From contig JAGWUV010000009.1 of the NCBI GenBank assembly GCA_028875875.1, positions 1 through 64,000 of the forward strand: DNA of 64,000 nt, given 5' to 3'. Position numbers and translations under genes: made by a program. Within the stretch, counting starts at the first letter, position 1, and each line of letters begins with the position of its first letter. The stretch is from Bacteroidota bacterium. GTDB lineage: Bacteria; Bacteroidota; Bacteroidia; Chitinophagales; Chitinophagaceae. The notes beneath the pieces are model-generated. The model made no database searches. It worked only from the letters and a program-made list of their open reading frames with translations, and was not told where the DNA came from. Positions 3,002-9,125 of this stretch are shown here, piece by piece.

Positions 3002-4339
3002 TCATACACCAAAAGGATAGGTTTCAGGCATCTGGTGTCCATCCGGTTCTATGTGCAAAGGATGCAATGCCTTCGTTTCGTTCAGGTAAATGAATGCATC
3101 ATAGCGCAAAGGGATCAACGATGGTACATAGTTCCCATACTTTTCATATAAAGGATTATACACCACACCTACAGCACGATGAGCAAGATGGTTTTCCAAT
3201 AGAGCATCATTACGCATAAAATCATCCATCAACAATAGTTTGTTCTCCTCACCTGCTTTATGTAAATAACGCTCCCAACTATCTTCCCTTCCTTCAGGTA
3301 AATGCATTACTTCCATTGTAGCCCCCCATCGTTTGCCTGCAACTACTGTTCCCTGGTATGATCCAAAGCCAACCAACACTACATCCTTATTCGCATAGGC
3401 CATACGAGCCAATTCACCAATATTATACATTCCTTCTTCACTCATATCTGTAGCTCTTGCATCTCCAATGTGCGTGTTATGTGCCCATACAACTATTTTA
3501 CTTTTAGGCCCGTAAAAATGCAACAACCTGTCTATCGTATCCGCCATGTGCCTATCTCTCACATTCCAGCTATGCACACTTCCCTCAATCATTGCCCTGT
3601 AATATTCTTCGGCATGAACGGCTACCAATGCATTCTGTTCTGTATTAAAAACATTTTCATAATCGCTATTGTATGATGGCATCTTACTTTGTATCTCCTT
3701 CAATAAGCCTACTACTTCATTCTTGCACAATTCAGGTACTAGATGTGCTGCCTTTGCATAAGATCTTCCCTCTTCTTTTTTATAAGGTTCAAAACATCGG
3801 TAGGCCTCCTGTGCAACCTGTAAGGCAGCCGGGTCTGTATTTTGCAGGTATTGCATAATACTATCCATACTTTCCCAGAGGCTATATACATCCAGTCCAT
3901 AAAAGCCAATTTTCTTTTCGTTAGGTAAGCCTATATTATATCGCTGCATCCAGTCTGCAAGAGCCACTGTTTCCCAATTCGCCCACATCCATGTTGGCCA
4001 TCTATTAAAAGCGTGTAATACTTTAAATGCACTTTTCGAATATTGATCATAGCCTTTAACAAACCTGTTCAACCGGTAACAATCGGGCCAGTCGCCTTCT
4101 ACGGCAATACAACTAAACCCTTTTTCTTCAATCAGTCTTTTTGAGATAGCGGCTCTCCATGTATAATATTCATGCGTACCATGAGTTGCTTCACCAAGCA
4201 TCACAATTCTTGCATCCGCTATTCTTTCAAACAACGGATCTAAATCAGCTTTACTTTTTAAAGGATACGACCATTGCTTAATTGCATTAACAACTTCGGC
4301 TTCCTTCACTTCCTGCGTCTGCGTAAAATAGTATTTCAT
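3002..4339 (-). CDS. Erythromycin esterase family protein
   Basis: This 445-residue protein belongs to the erythromycin esterase (Ere/EreA-like, PF05139) fold. The hallmark segment VMLGEATHGTHEYYTWR (around residues 46-62) holds the conserved Glu-His pair. EKGFSCIAVEGDWPDCYR follows, and VVWAHNTHIGDARA near residue 285 supplies further conserved His residues. Family length is about 400-450. It is probably not a resistance gene: homologues of this type commonly sit with Hsp20, phosphoribosyltransferase and PfkB genes in stress regulons, and the same partners are found here. It is divergent from the DUF892 gene, with about 150 bases between the starts. The real substrate is unknown. Confidence 0.85.
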   Translation of the reverse strand: MKYYFTQTQEVKEAEVVNAIKQWSYPLKSKADLDPLFERIADARIVMLGEATHGTHEYYTWRAAISKRLIEEKGFSCIAVEGDWPDCYRLNRFVKGYDQYSKSAFKVLHAFNRWPTWMWANWETVALADWMQRYNIGLPNEKKIGFYGLDVYSLWESMDSIMQYLQNTDPAALQVAQEAYRCFEPYKKEEGRSYAKAAHLVPELCKNEVVGLLKEIQSKMPSYNSDYENVFNTEQNALVAVHAEEYYRAMIEGSVHSWNVRDRHMADTIDRLLHFYGPKSKIVVWAHNTHIGDARATDMSEEGMYNIGELARMAYANKDVVLVGFGSYQGTVVAGKRWGATMEVMHLPEGREDSWERYLHKAGEENKLLLMDDFMRNDALLENHLAHRAVGVVYNPLYEKYGNYVPSLIPLRYDAFIYLNETKALHPLHIEPDGHQMPETYPFGV

Positions 4340-4486
4340 CTTACCTGCTTTTTCAATTGATATAATCTTTTTTAAAGCAAGTTTTTTTTATGTAGAACAG
4401 CAATGATGAAGATTACTGTTTCGGCTGATTGCAATCATTGGCAAGCATTTTATACTCTTCTAAATTGGACTTTAAATTTCAATGCC

Positions 4487-5050
4487 ATGCGAAATACCAT
4501 CCATAACACCGCTGTATTACAAAACCTGGTAGATTTAGAAACATTTCAATTTACTGCTGGCGAAACAGAATTAAGAAATGCATTACCCCGCTGGATACAC
4601 AGGGCTAGTTCCTCTCCCCTAAAAAAAGTATTGGAGCAATATCTTGCCGTAACGGAAGAACAATTACAAAAGCTGGAAGAAGTAAAAGAACCAGTGATGA
4701 GTATATCATCTGCCATCACCAACAACGTTATCAAAGCTTTGATTGAAGATGCAGAAGAAAAAATTGAACAATGTAAAGGCAGTGAAATACAGGATGCCTG
4801 TTTGCTTGCCTGCATACACAGTATTAACCACTTTAAGCTTATAAACTACAACACAGGCTATGCTTTTGCCAATGCATTGGGGATGGAAAAAGAAAAAAGT
4901 GTTTTTATGGATGCGGAAATCAACGAGAAACAAATTGATGAAACACTTTCAGATCTTGAAGATGAAGAATATGCTCTGCAAAATTCAATACCCACTACTT
5001 CAAAAATATTCAAATCATACAAGCAATACATTGGCTCTAAAGTGTTTTGA
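4487..5050 (+). CDS. DUF892 (YciE/YciF-like) ferritin-fold protein
   Basis: This is a predicted four-helix ferritin-like protein of the DUF892 family, associated with stress responses. Recognisable parts are the opening helix LQNLVDLETFQFTAGETELR and RALPRW-type segment (residues 10-35), and the later ACIHSINHFKLINYNTGYAFA helix and MDAEINEKQIDETLSDL helix. Their Glu, His and Tyr positions correspond to the family's di-metal ligands. An upstream in-frame ATG at 4403 would add 28 residues, but those residues (CNHWQAFYTLLNW) look unlike the family, so the ATG at 4487 is chosen with moderate certainty. It is the first gene of a plus-strand series that continues into PNPOx, PRT, Hsp20 and GlgP. 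Metal binding is inferred from the family. Confidence 0.75.
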   Translation: MRNTIHNTAVLQNLVDLETFQFTAGETELRNALPRWIHRASSSPLKKVLEQYLAVTEEQLQKLEEVKEPVMSISSAITNNVIKALIEDAEEKIEQCKGSEIQDACLLACIHSINHFKLINYNTGYAFANALGMEKEKSVFMDAEINEKQIDETLSDLEDEEYALQNSIPTTSKIFKSYKQYIGSKVF

Positions 5051-5087: not shown

Positions 5088-5537
5088 ATGCTTGGAAAAC
5101 TCAATCATGATCAAATGCTAAATGTGCTTGCAAGCCAGGCATTAGGAAGGCTGGCCTGTACAGATGGTACACAGCCTTACATCGTTCCTGTTACGTATAC
5201 GTTCGATGGAAAATATATTTACGGGCAAAGCAATGAAGGTAAAAAAATGAAGATACTCAGGAATAACCCGAACGTTTGTTTTGAAGTAGATATGATGACC
5301 GATATGGCCAACTGGCAAAGTGTACTTGTATATGGAACTTTTGAGGAATTGAATAACGAAGCAGCAGTATCGGCGAGAGAAAAACTTTTCAGTAGGGTGT
5401 ATTCACTAATGACAAGCAGCACTATTCATGGTTATGAACATGAGGTTACCAATACAGTAGATGATGCGAACAGGGTAAAACCTGTGATGTACAGGATACA
5501 TATCAAAAGTATGACAGGCCGGTTCGAAAAGAAATAA
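5088..5537 (+). CDS. Pyridoxamine 5'-phosphate oxidase-like FMN-binding protein
   Basis: This is a 149-residue split-barrel flavin-binding protein of the Pyridox_ox_2 / NimA-like group. The opening LGRLACTDGTQPYIVPVTYTFDGKYIYG is the standard first beta strands of the family. KMKILRNNPNVCFEVD supplies the segment that normally contacts the FMN phosphate. It is not PdxH, being too short and lacking the PLP-specific C-terminus. It lies 37 bases after the DUF892 gene and 10 bases before the phosphoribosyltransferase gene, so an operon is likely. Related flavoproteins reduce nitro compounds or bind heme or F420; which applies here is unknown. Confidence 0.83.
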   Translation: MLGKLNHDQMLNVLASQALGRLACTDGTQPYIVPVTYTFDGKYIYGQSNEGKKMKILRNNPNVCFEVDMMTDMANWQSVLVYGTFEELNNEAAVSAREKLFSRVYSLMTSSTIHGYEHEVTNTVDDANRVKPVMYRIHIKSMTGRFEKK

Positions 5538-5547
5538 AAATCATTTC

Positions 5548-6219
5548 ATGTTTACAAACAGAGAACAAGCCGGTATTCAACTGGCTGCAGCGCTGACGCA
5601 TTATAAAGGCCGGGATGCTGTTATACTCGCTGTTCCGCGTGGTGGTGTTCCTGTTGCCTATGAAGTGGCTAAATATCTTGAGCTTCCTATGGATATCATC
5701 CTTACCAAAAAAATCGGACATCCCATGAATAAAGAATATGCAATCGGAGCTGCCAGCATGGATGATTATTTTGTTATCACGCATGAAGATGTTTCACAAA
5801 AATATATTACCTCTGAAGTTGAAGACATTCGTTCTAAACTAAAAGCATCGTATGATAAGTTTATCAACAACAGACATCAGGAAACTTTGTATAATAAGAT
5901 TGTAATAGTAGTAGATGATGGTATTGCAACAGGAAACACATTGCTCGCAACCGTTAATTTATTAAAGAAAAGCCATCCTTTAAAAATCATCATTGCCACT
6001 CCTGTAGCTTCTTCCAGCGGAAAAATAAAATTGGCATCAGTTGCTGATGAAGTAATAAGTTTATTGGTTCCCGAAGAGTTTTATGGCGTTGGGGCTTTTT
6101 ATGAAGATTTTGAACAGGTTAGTGATACAGAAGTAATATGCCTGCTCAATGAAATTCAAAAAAGGAAAAAAGTACCTCTGCCCTTCTCCGATAATAAGAA
6201 AGTTGACCGTGGTCAGTAA
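5548..6219 (+). CDS. Phosphoribosyltransferase family protein
   Basis: This is a 223-residue type-I PRTase domain protein. The PRPP loop VVVDDGIATGNTLLA lies around residues 117-131. The early segment GRDAVILAVPRGGVPVAYEVAKYLELPMDIILTKKIGHP is typical of the stress-associated PRTases that are often fused to erythromycin-esterase or dienelactone-hydrolase domains. Here all three are separate genes: the esterase homologue at 3002-4339 and an alpha/beta hydrolase at 30342-30995. The base acceptor is unknown and it should not be named as a specific salvage enzyme. A short G+C inverted repeat (GGTCAG/CTGACC, 6211-6230) spans the stop codon but has no T run. Confidence 0.85.
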   Translation: MFTNREQAGIQLAAALTHYKGRDAVILAVPRGGVPVAYEVAKYLELPMDIILTKKIGHPMNKEYAIGAASMDDYFVITHEDVSQKYITSEVEDIRSKLKASYDKFINNRHQETLYNKIVIVVDDGIATGNTLLATVNLLKKSHPLKIIIATPVASSSGKIKLASVADEVISLLVPEEFYGVGAFYEDFEQVSDTEVICLLNEIQKRKKVPLPFSDNKKVDRGQ

Positions 6220-6424: not shown

Positions 6425-6874
6425 ATGAACAATGTTACTACTACACGTAAAAGCACCGTGTACCCGGGAGAGTTCACTTCCCTGATCAAAGAAGATGCCT
6501 TGAAAGAATTGCTTGAACTGGCACACAAAAACGAGGATTACCTGGTAATGCCACCCGTGAACGTAAAAGAATCTACTAATTTTTTTACTGTTGAAGTTGT
6601 AATTCCAGGCATAAGCAGGGAGGAACTTTTGGTGTTTACGGATGAGCAGGTGATCTCTGTATTTGTGATGAATGAAGCAAGTAAAGATCACGCTGCTGCT
6701 ACTTTTACAACACATGAATTTAAAGACCGTTGTTTTGGAAGACATATTATTCTTCCGAAATCAGCGGATACGGAATTTACGTGTGCAGAATATAAAACCG
6801 GTATACTATACCTGTTCATCCCGAAAGGAGAAAACAGCACAGGGCACGGGCACACGCAGATAGTTGTTTATTAA
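6425..6874 (+). CDS. Hsp20/alpha-crystallin family small heat-shock protein (divergent)
   Basis: This is a 149-residue small heat-shock protein, an ATP-independent holdase. The alpha-crystallin domain spans roughly residues 42-145, with VNVKESTNFFTVEVVIPGISREELLVF as first strands and a degenerate C-terminal motif (YKTGILYLFIPK). It is more divergent than the second Hsp20 at 8679 and lacks an obvious C-terminal I-x-I/V tail apart from QIVVY. It is separated by 205 bases from the PRTase and by 9 bases from the phosphorylase-like gene, so it probably heads a short unit with the latter. Confidence 0.8.
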   Translation: MNNVTTTRKSTVYPGEFTSLIKEDALKELLELAHKNEDYLVMPPVNVKESTNFFTVEVVIPGISREELLVFTDEQVISVFVMNEASKDHAAATFTTHEFKDRCFGRHIILPKSADTEFTCAEYKTGILYLFIPKGENSTGHGHTQIVVY

Positions 6875-6883
6875 AAACAAACG

Positions 6884-8533
6884 ATGAGTTTTTCGTTTAC
6901 GCATCCTTATTTAATTAACGCTGCTTTTCAAAAAAAAGTGGCTTACTTCTGTATGGAGTTTGCCATTCATCAACCTTTGAAAATATATGCAGGAGGACTC
7001 GGTTTTTTAGCAGGCTCTCATATGCGGAGTGCATTTGAGTTACGCCAGAATATGATAGGCATCGGTATCTTGTGGAAATATGGTTACTATGACCAGGTAA
7101 GGAAACAAGATCAAACAATGGATGTTTTGTTTGAAGAAAAGAAGTACGGATTTCTTGAAGAAACAAATATCAAGTTTACCATAAAGGTTGCCAAACATGA
7201 TGTATGGGTTACTGCTTACTACCTGCCTCCGCATATATTTAATACCATCCCTGTTTTTTTATTAAGCACTGATCTTCCGGAGAATGATTATCTCGCGAAA
7301 ACTATTTCGCATAAATTATATGACGCTAATCCTGAAACTAAAATAGCCGCTACCATTTTACTGGGAGCAGGTGGCGCAAAACTGCTGGAACACATAGAAT
7401 GGACGCCGGATGTTTATCACCTTAATGAATCACATGCCTTACCTCTTATTTTTTACCTGTACGATCAATTCAAAAAACTGGAAGAAGTGAGAAAGAGAGT
7501 TGTTTTCACCAATCATACTCCAGAAGATGCAGGCAATGAAAAAACACATATGGCATTACTTGAGAAGATGAGTTTCTTTTGCGATGTTCCGATAACTGAA
7601 GTCAAAGCCATCACTCAAACAGGTGACTCAGACATACTCGATCATACACTTACTGCATTACGTTTATCGCACAAAGCAAACAGCGTTTCACAACTTCATC
7701 AGCAAACACTCCGGCAAATGTGGAGCGGTTATACTGATATATGTGAGATCATTTCCATTACCAATGCACAAAATTATCAGTACTGGCATGATGAACGATT
7801 ATACCAGGCTTTTGCAGCAGATGACCATGAGGAAATGAGGAAAGTAAAAAGCGAAAGAAAAAAAGAATTATTTGAAATTGTTGCAGATCAGAACGGTGAA
7901 ATTTATGATGAAAAGATTTGTACGATTGTTTTTGCTAAACGTTTTGCCGGTTACAAAAGGCCAGATATTTTCTTTCACGACATGGAAAGATTTCATAGAC
8001 TGGTAAGCAATAAAGAAAGACCTGTGCAAATTATATGGGCCGGGAAGCCTTATCCCATGGATTATGCAGGCATCGGCATATTTGATAAGATAGTAGACAT
8101 TTGTAAAACATATACCAACTGTTCCATACTGGCAGGCTATGAACTAAGATTATCTAAGCTTCTTAAAAACGGAGCGGACGTGTGGTTGAATGTACCTAGG
8201 CTAACTCATGAAGCTTCCGGAACCAGTGGTATGGCTGCTGCTATGAACGGCACTATCAACCTTTCTTTACCTGATGGATGGTTCCCTGAATTTGCGAAGG
8301 ATAAAATCAATTCATTCATTATCCCATCCTGTGATATTTCATTAGCAGAATATATACAAGATGATATAGACTGTGGTAGCTTATATGATGTTCTTGAAAA
8401 AGAAGTGTTACCCATGTATTATGATTACCCTAACCGATGGACAGAGATCATTAAAACGGGCATGAAAGATATACTTCCCCAGTTCGATAGCAACCGTCTT
8501 GCACGTGAATACTATGAACGTTTATACACCTGA
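6884..8533 (+). CDS. Alpha-glucan (glycogen/starch) phosphorylase family protein lacking the PLP lysine
   Basis: This 549-residue protein has the GT35 alpha-glucan phosphorylase fold of the short form. Family marks are VAYFCMEFAIHQPLKIYAGGLGFLAG (residues 19-44), DVYHLNESHALP, VVFTNHTPEDAGNE, RFAGYKRPDIFFHDMERF and VQIIWAGKPYPMDYAG. The family's C-terminal PLP site normally reads E-A-S-G-T-S-(G/N)-M-K. Here the codon after Met450 is GCT, giving GTSGMAAAMNG, so the lysine that forms the Schiff base with PLP is Ala451. The phosphate-site Tyr-Lys-Arg (YKR) is kept. The gene is intact, with no frameshift. It may be an inactive or repurposed phosphorylase, or a glycosyltransferase-like enzyme with changed chemistry. 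It sits between two Hsp20 genes in the stress island. Confidence 0.8.
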   Translation: MSFSFTHPYLINAAFQKKVAYFCMEFAIHQPLKIYAGGLGFLAGSHMRSAFELRQNMIGIGILWKYGYYDQVRKQDQTMDVLFEEKKYGFLEETNIKFTIKVAKHDVWVTAYYLPPHIFNTIPVFLLSTDLPENDYLAKTISHKLYDANPETKIAATILLGAGGAKLLEHIEWTPDVYHLNESHALPLIFYLYDQFKKLEEVRKRVVFTNHTPEDAGNEKTHMALLEKMSFFCDVPITEVKAITQTGDSDILDHTLTALRLSHKANSVSQLHQQTLRQMWSGYTDICEIISITNAQNYQYWHDERLYQAFAADDHEEMRKVKSERKKELFEIVADQNGEIYDEKICTIVFAKRFAGYKRPDIFFHDMERFHRLVSNKERPVQIIWAGKPYPMDYAGIGIFDKIVDICKTYTNCSILAGYELRLSKLLKNGADVWLNVPRLTHEASGTSGMAAAMNGTINLSLPDGWFPEFAKDKINSFIIPSCDISLAEYIQDDIDCGSLYDVLEKEVLPMYYDYPNRWTEIIKTGMKDILPQFDSNRLAREYYERLYT

Positions 8534-8678: not shown

Positions 8679-9125
8679 ATGTCAACACGAACACTTACAA
8701 GAAGCAGTGAAATGCGTCCAACTTTATTGGAAGAATTTTTCCGTCCCTGGTACGATTGGATGGATACAGATGGAGGATCCTTCAGAACACTGAGTAGTCC
8801 TGCTGCCAACATCATTGAAAACAAAGATGCCTATCATGTTTCGCTAGCTGTACCAGGCATGAAAAAAGAAGACTTCAACATAGATATTGATGGAAATATT
8901 TTAACCATCAGTTGCGAGAAAGAGGAAAAGAAAGAAGAAAAAGAAGCAAAGTTCACCAGGAAAGAATTCAACTATACTTCTTTCACCAGAAGTTTTACCT
9001 TACCTGATGAAATAAACAAGGATAAGATTGATGCACATTATGAAGATGGCATTTTAAAACTTTCACTTCCCAAAAAAGAAGAAGCTAAGAAGCTGCTAAA
9101 CAGTAAACATATTGCAGTGAAATGA
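8679..9125 (+). CDS. hsp20: Hsp20/alpha-crystallin family small heat-shock protein
   Basis: This is a canonical bacterial small heat-shock protein of 148 residues. The N-terminal arm contains LEEFFRPWYDW. The alpha-crystallin domain spans about residues 40-140, with PAANIIENKDAYHVSLAVPGMKKEDF, a charged loop of E and K (residues 86-96), and the motif YEDGILKLSLPKKEEAK ending the domain. The tail ends in KHIAVK, an I-x-V motif of the kind that docks into neighbouring subunits. It is monocistronic: it has its own -7 box, a strong Shine-Dalgarno sequence and a terminator 21 bases after the stop. It closes the stress island. Confidence 0.93.
   Translation: MSTRTLTRSSEMRPTLLEEFFRPWYDWMDTDGGSFRTLSSPAANIIENKDAYHVSLAVPGMKKEDFNIDIDGNILTISCEKEEKKEEKEAKFTRKEFNYTSFTRSFTLPDEINKDKIDAHYEDGILKLSLPKKEEAKKLLNSKHIAVK

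Follow-up and report, generated by a model that had tools for sequence, protein, structure and literature searches.

Across many Bacteroidota, a branch of the alpha-glucan phosphorylase family has lost the lysine that binds PLP in its relatives. We put it at about even that its PLP pocket has been naturally converted, giving either a PLP-free phosphorylase or a nucleotide-sugar synthase-like enzyme, and that the Ala/Ser branch of the family forms a two-gene unit with a dedicated Hsp20. Judged from the sequences compared, loss of the Lys is a trait of the whole clade, in which the Ala of the gene studied here is one of three states.

The protein and its lysine-less clade

The gene lies in the window, by which we mean the whole 64,000-nucleotide stretch analysed (positions 1 to 64,000 of contig JAGWUV010000009.1, from a bacterium of the Chitinophagaceae).

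6884..8533, + strand: Lys-less GT35-type protein (549 aa, intact frame, TIGR02094 match, AlphaFold2 model)
8234..8236, + strand: codon GCT for Ala451, at the position of the PLP-binding Lys (from translation and family alignment)

Translation of the gene met no internal stop, and the motif of its product is EASGTSGMAAAMNG, with Ala at residue 451, so the unbroken frame and the replaced PLP lysine that the initial annotation had described both hold. The protein scored 417.1 bits against the NCBIfam model TIGR02094 (alpha-glucan family phosphorylase), above its cut-off of 191.7, and fell below the cut-offs of both TIGR02093 (canonical phosphorylase; 46.5 bits, cut-off 552.9) and TIGR02095 (GT5 glycogen synthase; 38.9 bits, cut-off 328.45), while Pfam PF00343 aligned to residues 315–465 alone (59.7 bits). 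Where PLP-dependent GT35 enzymes carry the Lys of GT(S/G)(G/N)xK it has Ala451, but the phosphate-site Arg and Lys and the active-site Glu and His are present (R353, K358, E443 and H211, matched to phosphorylase numbering by motif). By sequence, then, it is a TIGR02094 member and, by the defining residue, not a PLP-dependent GT35 phosphorylase. The decay of catalytic residues that marks a GT35 pseudoenzyme was not seen, the PLP Lys alone being lost among the motif residues followed. The RxxxxK phosphate motif, as in GT4 trehalose phosphorylase, reads R353-F-A-G-Y-K358, and no GT4 family model was among the protein's Pfam and NCBIfam matches at E 0.001. A weak match to BshA, which we take to be a GT4-type enzyme, was found in a paralogue (19.2 bits, cut-off 273.7) and in 7 of the 63 members of alignment A2.

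The genome that contains the window has a second copy, 56% identical to the window protein and with Thr at the PLP-Lys site, and no further PF00343 protein beyond these two. Counting both, the site residue in 104 group sequences was Thr in 79, Ala in 13, Ser in 12 and Lys in none. These sequences (24 plus 80) come from 107 loci, the 80 being the best 80 of 591 relatives, so that the survey is weighted to near relatives; the motif was not obtained from three loci (L028, L029 and L030), and two others (L024 and L110) run off contig ends. The substitution is therefore fixed among the homologues surveyed, and the loss cannot be read as a one-gene event, given its clade-wide spread and the Thr-bearing paralogue in the same genome. 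With Lys absent from every group sequence, a sequencing error at 8234–8236 is excluded in practice, and a recent pseudogene was rejected because the frame is open and dN/dS is low (0.006–0.127) in the six of 16 pairs with computable dS, all six being Thr or Ser pairs and three having dS above 1.5; the remaining 10, including all five Ala-Ala pairs, were saturated. We found nothing in favour of either error or pseudogene and regard their joint probability as negligible.

Lys was present at the site in all 30 comparison loci, which are longer forms (the best 30 of a phylum-wide TIGR02094 search that matched in 255 of 296 genomes). In the alignment with 15 plasmid loci added (106 Lys-less, 43 Lys-bearing and 2 canonical sequences), it was present in all 43 other TIGR02094 enzymes compared and in both canonical phosphorylases. 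One locus (L167) reads LKASGTSGMK, with Lys at the PLP site and the motif Glu also replaced by Lys. The named carriers of the Lys-less form are all Bacteroidota: Niastella, Ferruginibacter, Flavihumibacter, Spirosoma, Runella, Pontibacter, Mucilaginibacter (a MAG), Persicobacter and Sediminibacterium. Among plasmid-borne relatives (15 of 47 records read) the Lys-less form occurred only in Runella and Pontibacter. Among the relatives examined here (the best 80 of 591, and 15 of 47 plasmid records), the Lys-less branch was seen in Bacteroidota only.

In a tree of 84 rows and 552 columns, with the PLP-Lys column left out, the 57 Lys-less rows were split off together by one branch (SH-aLRT 99, stem 1.51) and the 25 Lys-bearing rows by another (SH-aLRT 89), with two canonical rows as outgroup; the root falls on a very long branch where long branches meet, so the Lys-less clade may be sister to TIGR02094 or nested in it. 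The minimum number of label changes was 8 for Thr, 6 for Ala and 8 for Ser, and 12 over K/T/S/A. From the tree, Thr looks to be the ancestral state within the clade, and a side chain that is small but variable would fit a position that needs to be free rather than one that reacts.

Kept residues, the altered pocket and the fold

Four features of the window gene bear on the active site.

7514..7516, + strand: H211, in 106/106 Lys-less and 43/43 Lys-bearing sequences
7937..7957, + strand: phosphate site of basic residue 352, R353 and K358 (RxxxxK), common to Lys-less and Lys-bearing proteins
8135..8167, + strand: apparently rebuilt pocket segment G418–K428, with G418, E420, S424 and K428 in 106/106 Lys-less sequences
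8210..8224, + strand: EASGT motif, E443–T447, in 106/106 Lys-less sequences

By motif, and in rabbit numbering, we take EASGT to correspond to the region around E672 in glycogen phosphorylase and H211 to the active-site His, H377. Together with H211, residues N294, R353 and K358 were found in all 106 Lys-less and all 43 Lys-bearing sequences, as was T447, and E443 was found in 106/106 and 42/43, respectively. At least 95% conservation in both sets was seen for GGLG (37–40), Y357, R359, G387, K388, D432 and W434, and the fold and YKR phosphate site described earlier as intact are indeed so. By motif, these kept residues appear to correspond to those that bind glucose and phosphate and carry out catalysis in glycogen phosphorylase.

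The surroundings of the lost Lys differ between the two sets, although these site-by-site counts were taken on the alignment used to choose the sets and so describe the split rather than test it independently. Segment G418–K428 presumably lines the PLP pocket, as judged by motif. All 106 Lys-less sequences have G418, E420, S424 (presumably the counterpart of the pocket-lining Ala, A653) and K428, whereas among the 43 Lys-bearing sequences the same positions hold N (32) or D (9), N (24) or D (17), A (41), and V (33), I (6), T (3) or Y (1). Outside this segment, V349 (103/106) stands against G in all 43 Lys-bearing sequences, P389 and Y390 (each 104/106) against A and H (each 42), and F478 (105/106) against W in all 43; position 157 is Glu in 43/43 Lys-bearing sequences and mostly F, S, A or Y in Lys-less ones. 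Residue 352 is basic (R or K) in all 106 Lys-less sequences, and we take its counterpart in phosphorylase to contact the PLP phosphate. As far as the alignment can tell, the cofactor-pocket region was rebuilt, then held, in the Lys-less clade.

Invariant K428, one helical turn behind S424, raises the prospect that PLP is still bound covalently through a relocated lysine on the pocket helix. We consider this very unlikely, since the helix position should place K428 at a greater distance from the cofactor than the lost Lys, and since K33, K65, K86, K322 and K326 are likewise near-invariant Lys in the Lys-less clade and variable in Lys-bearing relatives.

A rebuilt pocket would allow a nucleotide donor, and the chief alternative, itself rather doubtful, holds that the PLP pocket now (again) accommodates ADP- or UDP-glucose and that the enzyme extends alpha-glucan like the related GT5 and GT3 synthases. 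For this alternative, GlgA of the window's genome (GYHEGLSHQMYAGGD) has a stretch similar to the Lys-less consensus GY...LS...K...D, and the G-Y-x3-L-S segment of this consensus is like that of the GlgA proteins of four related genomes, unlike Lys-bearing relatives, which mostly have N or D before that Tyr and Ala in place of Ser. TIGR02095 also matched 51 of the 63 members of A2 (61 Lys-less and 2 Lys-bearing sequences) versus 2 of 20 Lys-bearing cores; against it, the same model matched (E 0.001) Lys-bearing proteins from plasmids too, namely 4 of the 6 short ones and 1 of the 3 long ones, the scores seen were far under the cut-off, and residue 352 is still basic, compared with Gly at that position in the four GlgA proteins read. 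Profile comparison by hhalign was given no weight, its scores against GlgA being weak throughout (22.2 over 431 columns for all Lys-less sequences, 23.2 over 438 for a size-matched Lys-less sample and 17.9 over 36 for Lys-bearing ones).

The AlphaFold2 model of the window protein (pLDDT 95.5, pTM 0.93) aligned by VIA-align with Segatella copri glycogen phosphorylase (9l6i; Z 34.6, rmsd 2.3, 536 aligned), with E. coli maltodextrin phosphorylase bound to glucose 1-phosphate (1l5v; Z 33.5, rmsd 2.2, 532 aligned) and with E. coli glycogen synthase bound to ADP and glucose (2qzs; Z 32.3, rmsd 2.8, 439 aligned). A Lys-bearing control model (the L045 core) gave Z 40.9 to the S. copri phosphorylase and 28.7 to maltodextrin phosphorylase, with no synthase among its 50 best matches (Z 27.5 or more). 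The control model is poorer (pLDDT 81.6) and was built from 20 sequences versus 63 for the window protein, and this contrast in closeness to the synthase is only suggestive of a nucleotide-sugar transferase.

Glycogen genes and genomic neighbours

Glycogen genes were compared between all 21 carrier genomes and 6 non-carriers of the same family, out of 39 genomes (12 other non-carriers were left out); counts here and in the class-wide sample below come from related genomes and do not represent independent events. GlgB scored above its cut-off in 21/21 carriers versus 2/6 non-carriers (Fisher p 0.0009), and full GlgA was found in 19/21 versus 1/6 (p 0.0014), the two carriers without GlgA (G027 and G036) having GlgE, maltokinase and GlgB in a row. 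The Lys-less protein was the sole GT35 (PF00343) homologue in 19 of the 21 carriers, a canonical phosphorylase being found only in G009 and G025. In the window's genome, GlgA, GlgC, GlgB and a cyclomaltodextrinase-type amylase lie in one region, GlgA being a gene separate from the window gene. Occurrence of the Lys-less protein beside both GlgA-type and GlgE routes points to a shared need downstream of synthesis, and the presence of GlgA or GlgE in every one of these carriers argues against another nucleotide-sugar transferase.

A class-wide sample of 119 genomes, sharing three carriers with the first set, contained 13 genomes with a close relative of the Thr copy, carriers being defined by score (a match to the Thr copy at E below 1e-180) with the site itself read in G000, G004 and G014; 10 genomes with weaker matches were not counted. 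GlgB was present in 7 of these 13 carriers versus 13 of 106 others (p 0.0012), and canonical TIGR02093 at E 1e-50 was found in none of the 119 genomes. The six carriers without GlgB also lacked full GlgA and GlgE (GH57 branching enzymes and GT3 synthases lay outside the search), so that glycogen genes do not strictly accompany the protein, and their lack of GlgA- and GlgE-type synthases would suit a nucleotide-sugar transferase.

Two further kinds of protein were observed during these searches. Three genomes (G361, G389 and G413) have open frames of 1337–1360 codons that contain a family-related region and are perhaps fusions. All 27 genomes of the first set encode a protein that matches the N-terminal part of GlgA only (positions 2 to about 213; for example G000:C35:29432-30097), mostly in frames of 270–350 codons and even where glycogen genes are absent; a review mentions a GlgA-GT5 fragment retained in Bacteroidetes (PMC11046441).

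In the window itself the gene has the following neighbours, in line with the earlier description of a stress island with an hsp20 gene on either side.

3002-4339, - strand: erythromycin-esterase family (Pfam; stress island)
4403-5050, + strand: DUF892 (Pfam; stress island)
5088-5537, + strand: Pyridox_ox_2 (Pfam; stress island)
5548-6219, + strand: phosphoribosyltransferase domain (Pfam; stress island)
6425..6874, + strand: divergent hsp20, whose end lies 9 bases ahead of the GT35 start codon (PF00011, 42.5 bits)
8679..9125, + strand: second hsp20, downstream (PF00011, 93.4 bits; 25% identical to the first)

The upstream hsp20 and the GT35 gene are probably co-transcribed. Neighbours were surveyed at 83 loci of unequal length (the best 80 of 591, two plasmids and the window). 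Among the Ala/Ser loci of the best 80, 13 of 21 testable ones (8 Ala and 5 Ser) had an hsp20 immediately upstream in the same orientation (-61 to +70 bases relative to the open frame), versus 0 of 60 Thr-type loci, a contrast with p 5e-10 if relatedness is ignored. L067, which has no upstream DNA, stands outside the testable loci, and no upstream hsp20 was found at two Ser loci (L005 and L006) with 1.5-kb flanks. Pairs occur at L061–L064, L068–L071, L074, L075, L077, L078 and L087, with the window as one further pair, and the upstream Hsp20 proteins are divergent (26–44% identity to that of the window).

This pairing, the loss of the cofactor lysine and the repeated switching of the site among T, S and A would suit a glucan-binding protein with no catalysis left, such as an adaptor through which the neighbouring Hsp20 reaches glycogen. 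We judge this unlikely: the catalytic and phosphate residues are kept in 106/106 sequences, and the Thr type goes without an upstream hsp20. Most carrier genomes have no GT35 besides the Lys-less type, which, taken with the invariance of H211, N294, R353, K358 and E443, likewise makes the regulatory pseudo-enzyme suggested in the initial annotation less probable. Its other suggestion, PLP-free glycosyl transfer, may yet apply.

Thr-type genes are often found in other company. A group defined by the motif PRVPR occupies 37 of the 83 loci (36 Thr and the Ser-type L096) and sits among housekeeping genes, with hsp20, DUF892 and Pyridox_ox_2 nearby at 0/37 loci versus 16, 7 and 11 of the other 46, and phospholipase-D-like, universal stress and cation-ATPase genes at 0/37 versus 10, 6 and 10. 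Presence of Pyridox_ox_2 (PNPOx-like) near the Lys-less gene at 11 of 46 stress-type loci probably reflects a stress-island habit rather than a link to PLP.

A general linkage to glycogen genes was rejected, as these lay nearby at only two of the 83 loci: L101, with glgB directly upstream, and L096, with glgX (its apparent glgB match being a weak match of the same glgX gene). Further neighbours were phosphoketolase with acetate kinase at L094 (phosphoketolase occurring at one of the 83 loci), acetate kinase at L095, and type II GAPDH with DUF1622 at L177. Short Lys-bearing relatives in other phyla adjoin type II GAPDH, phosphoketolase, GlgX or DUF1622, and one long Lys-bearing relative lies between transketolase and acetate kinase. 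A promoter scan gave no excess (16 found versus 16.6 expected). Upstream of the Thr-type copy in the window's genome, L183:12148-13092 encodes a protein that begins like a lipoprotein and matches no Pfam family; look-alikes judged by eye recur beside other Thr-type loci, and a cluster of flank proteins was found at 31 of 81 loci.

A candidate phosphorolytic enzyme and its relation to known systems

The reading we lean towards, tentatively and at slightly less than even chances, is an active GT-B alpha-glucan enzyme without the PLP Schiff base, most likely still phosphorolytic. For the activity, phosphorolysis, cofactor state and residue roles of the Lys-less enzyme, we infer the following. A branch of the alpha-glucan phosphorylase family would have lost the PLP Schiff base once, and its members would mobilise glycogen or maltodextrin phosphorolytically, yielding glucose 1-phosphate, with R353 and K358 holding the substrate phosphate and E443, H211 and N294 the glucose. 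The acid/base role of the PLP phosphate may be filled by non-covalently bound PLP, by a different anion at residue 352, which has stayed basic, or, in the manner of GT4 trehalose phosphorylase, by the phosphate of the substrate. The Ala/Ser paralogue, the type of the window gene, would have been drawn into a stress operon alongside a small heat-shock protein.

The PLP imine itself is not catalytic in phosphorylase, and with the PLP phosphate as proton carrier the loss of the Lys need not end catalysis if an anion occupies the phosphate pocket. In classical enzymes this phosphate donates and accepts a proton, according to the review cited above (PMC11046441), and glycogen phosphorylase is counted among the earliest cases of chemical rescue in another review (PMC12018205), whose reference 2 concerns, by its title, the pyridoxal-reconstituted enzyme with phosphate analogues. 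Breakdown is favoured by the catabolic neighbours and by co-occurrence with two separate routes of synthesis. Against phosphorolysis, PRVPR-group copies lie among genes without an evident glucan link, and a nucleotide donor would be equally compatible with the altered pocket and with the similarity of the model to glycogen synthase in its ADP-bound form.

GT4 trehalose phosphorylase, which is PLP-free, is a retaining phosphorylase with RXXXXK like the window protein, and its substrate differs. Use of RXXXXK as its phosphate site is described in PMC12018205. It was not among the matches listed for the window protein's model, an absence to which we attach no meaning. The TIGR02094 phosphorylases (S. 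copri 9l6i, and short plasmid forms such as that of Simkania) share with the Lys-less proteins the whole fold, the HMM and the phosphate and glucose residues, and the short Lys-bearing forms also share length and some gene neighbours; in contrast, every Lys-less member read lacks the PLP lysine, and segment 415–428, loop 389–400 and the residues around 147–157, 295–297 and 467–478 are changed together. GlgP2 of Chlamydiae, also found on the Simkania plasmid, is described as a phosphorylase isoform (PMC7935935). Canonical GT35 enzymes (TIGR02093, MalP) have the GT-B fold, EASGT and RxxxxK in common with the window protein, which lacks their Lys and scores below their cut-off; GT5 GlgA shares the fold, the GYxxxLS segment, RxxxxK and the Glu of an E-x-x-G motif, again with the window protein below the TIGR02095 cut-off.

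According to a review (PMC4336185), GT35 contains phosphorylases exclusively, and these are the only phosphorylases that require PLP. No report of a Lys-less GT35 branch was found in the literature searched, a search that most subscription journals lay outside. The Lys-less genes on the Runella and Pontibacter plasmids are annotated glgP, and for such Bacteroidota neither this annotation of Lys-less genes nor any model of glycogen breakdown that depends on it can be taken as proven. A conserved branch of this kind would test how nucleotide-sugar transferases and phosphorylases interconverted, and why phosphorylases need PLP at all.
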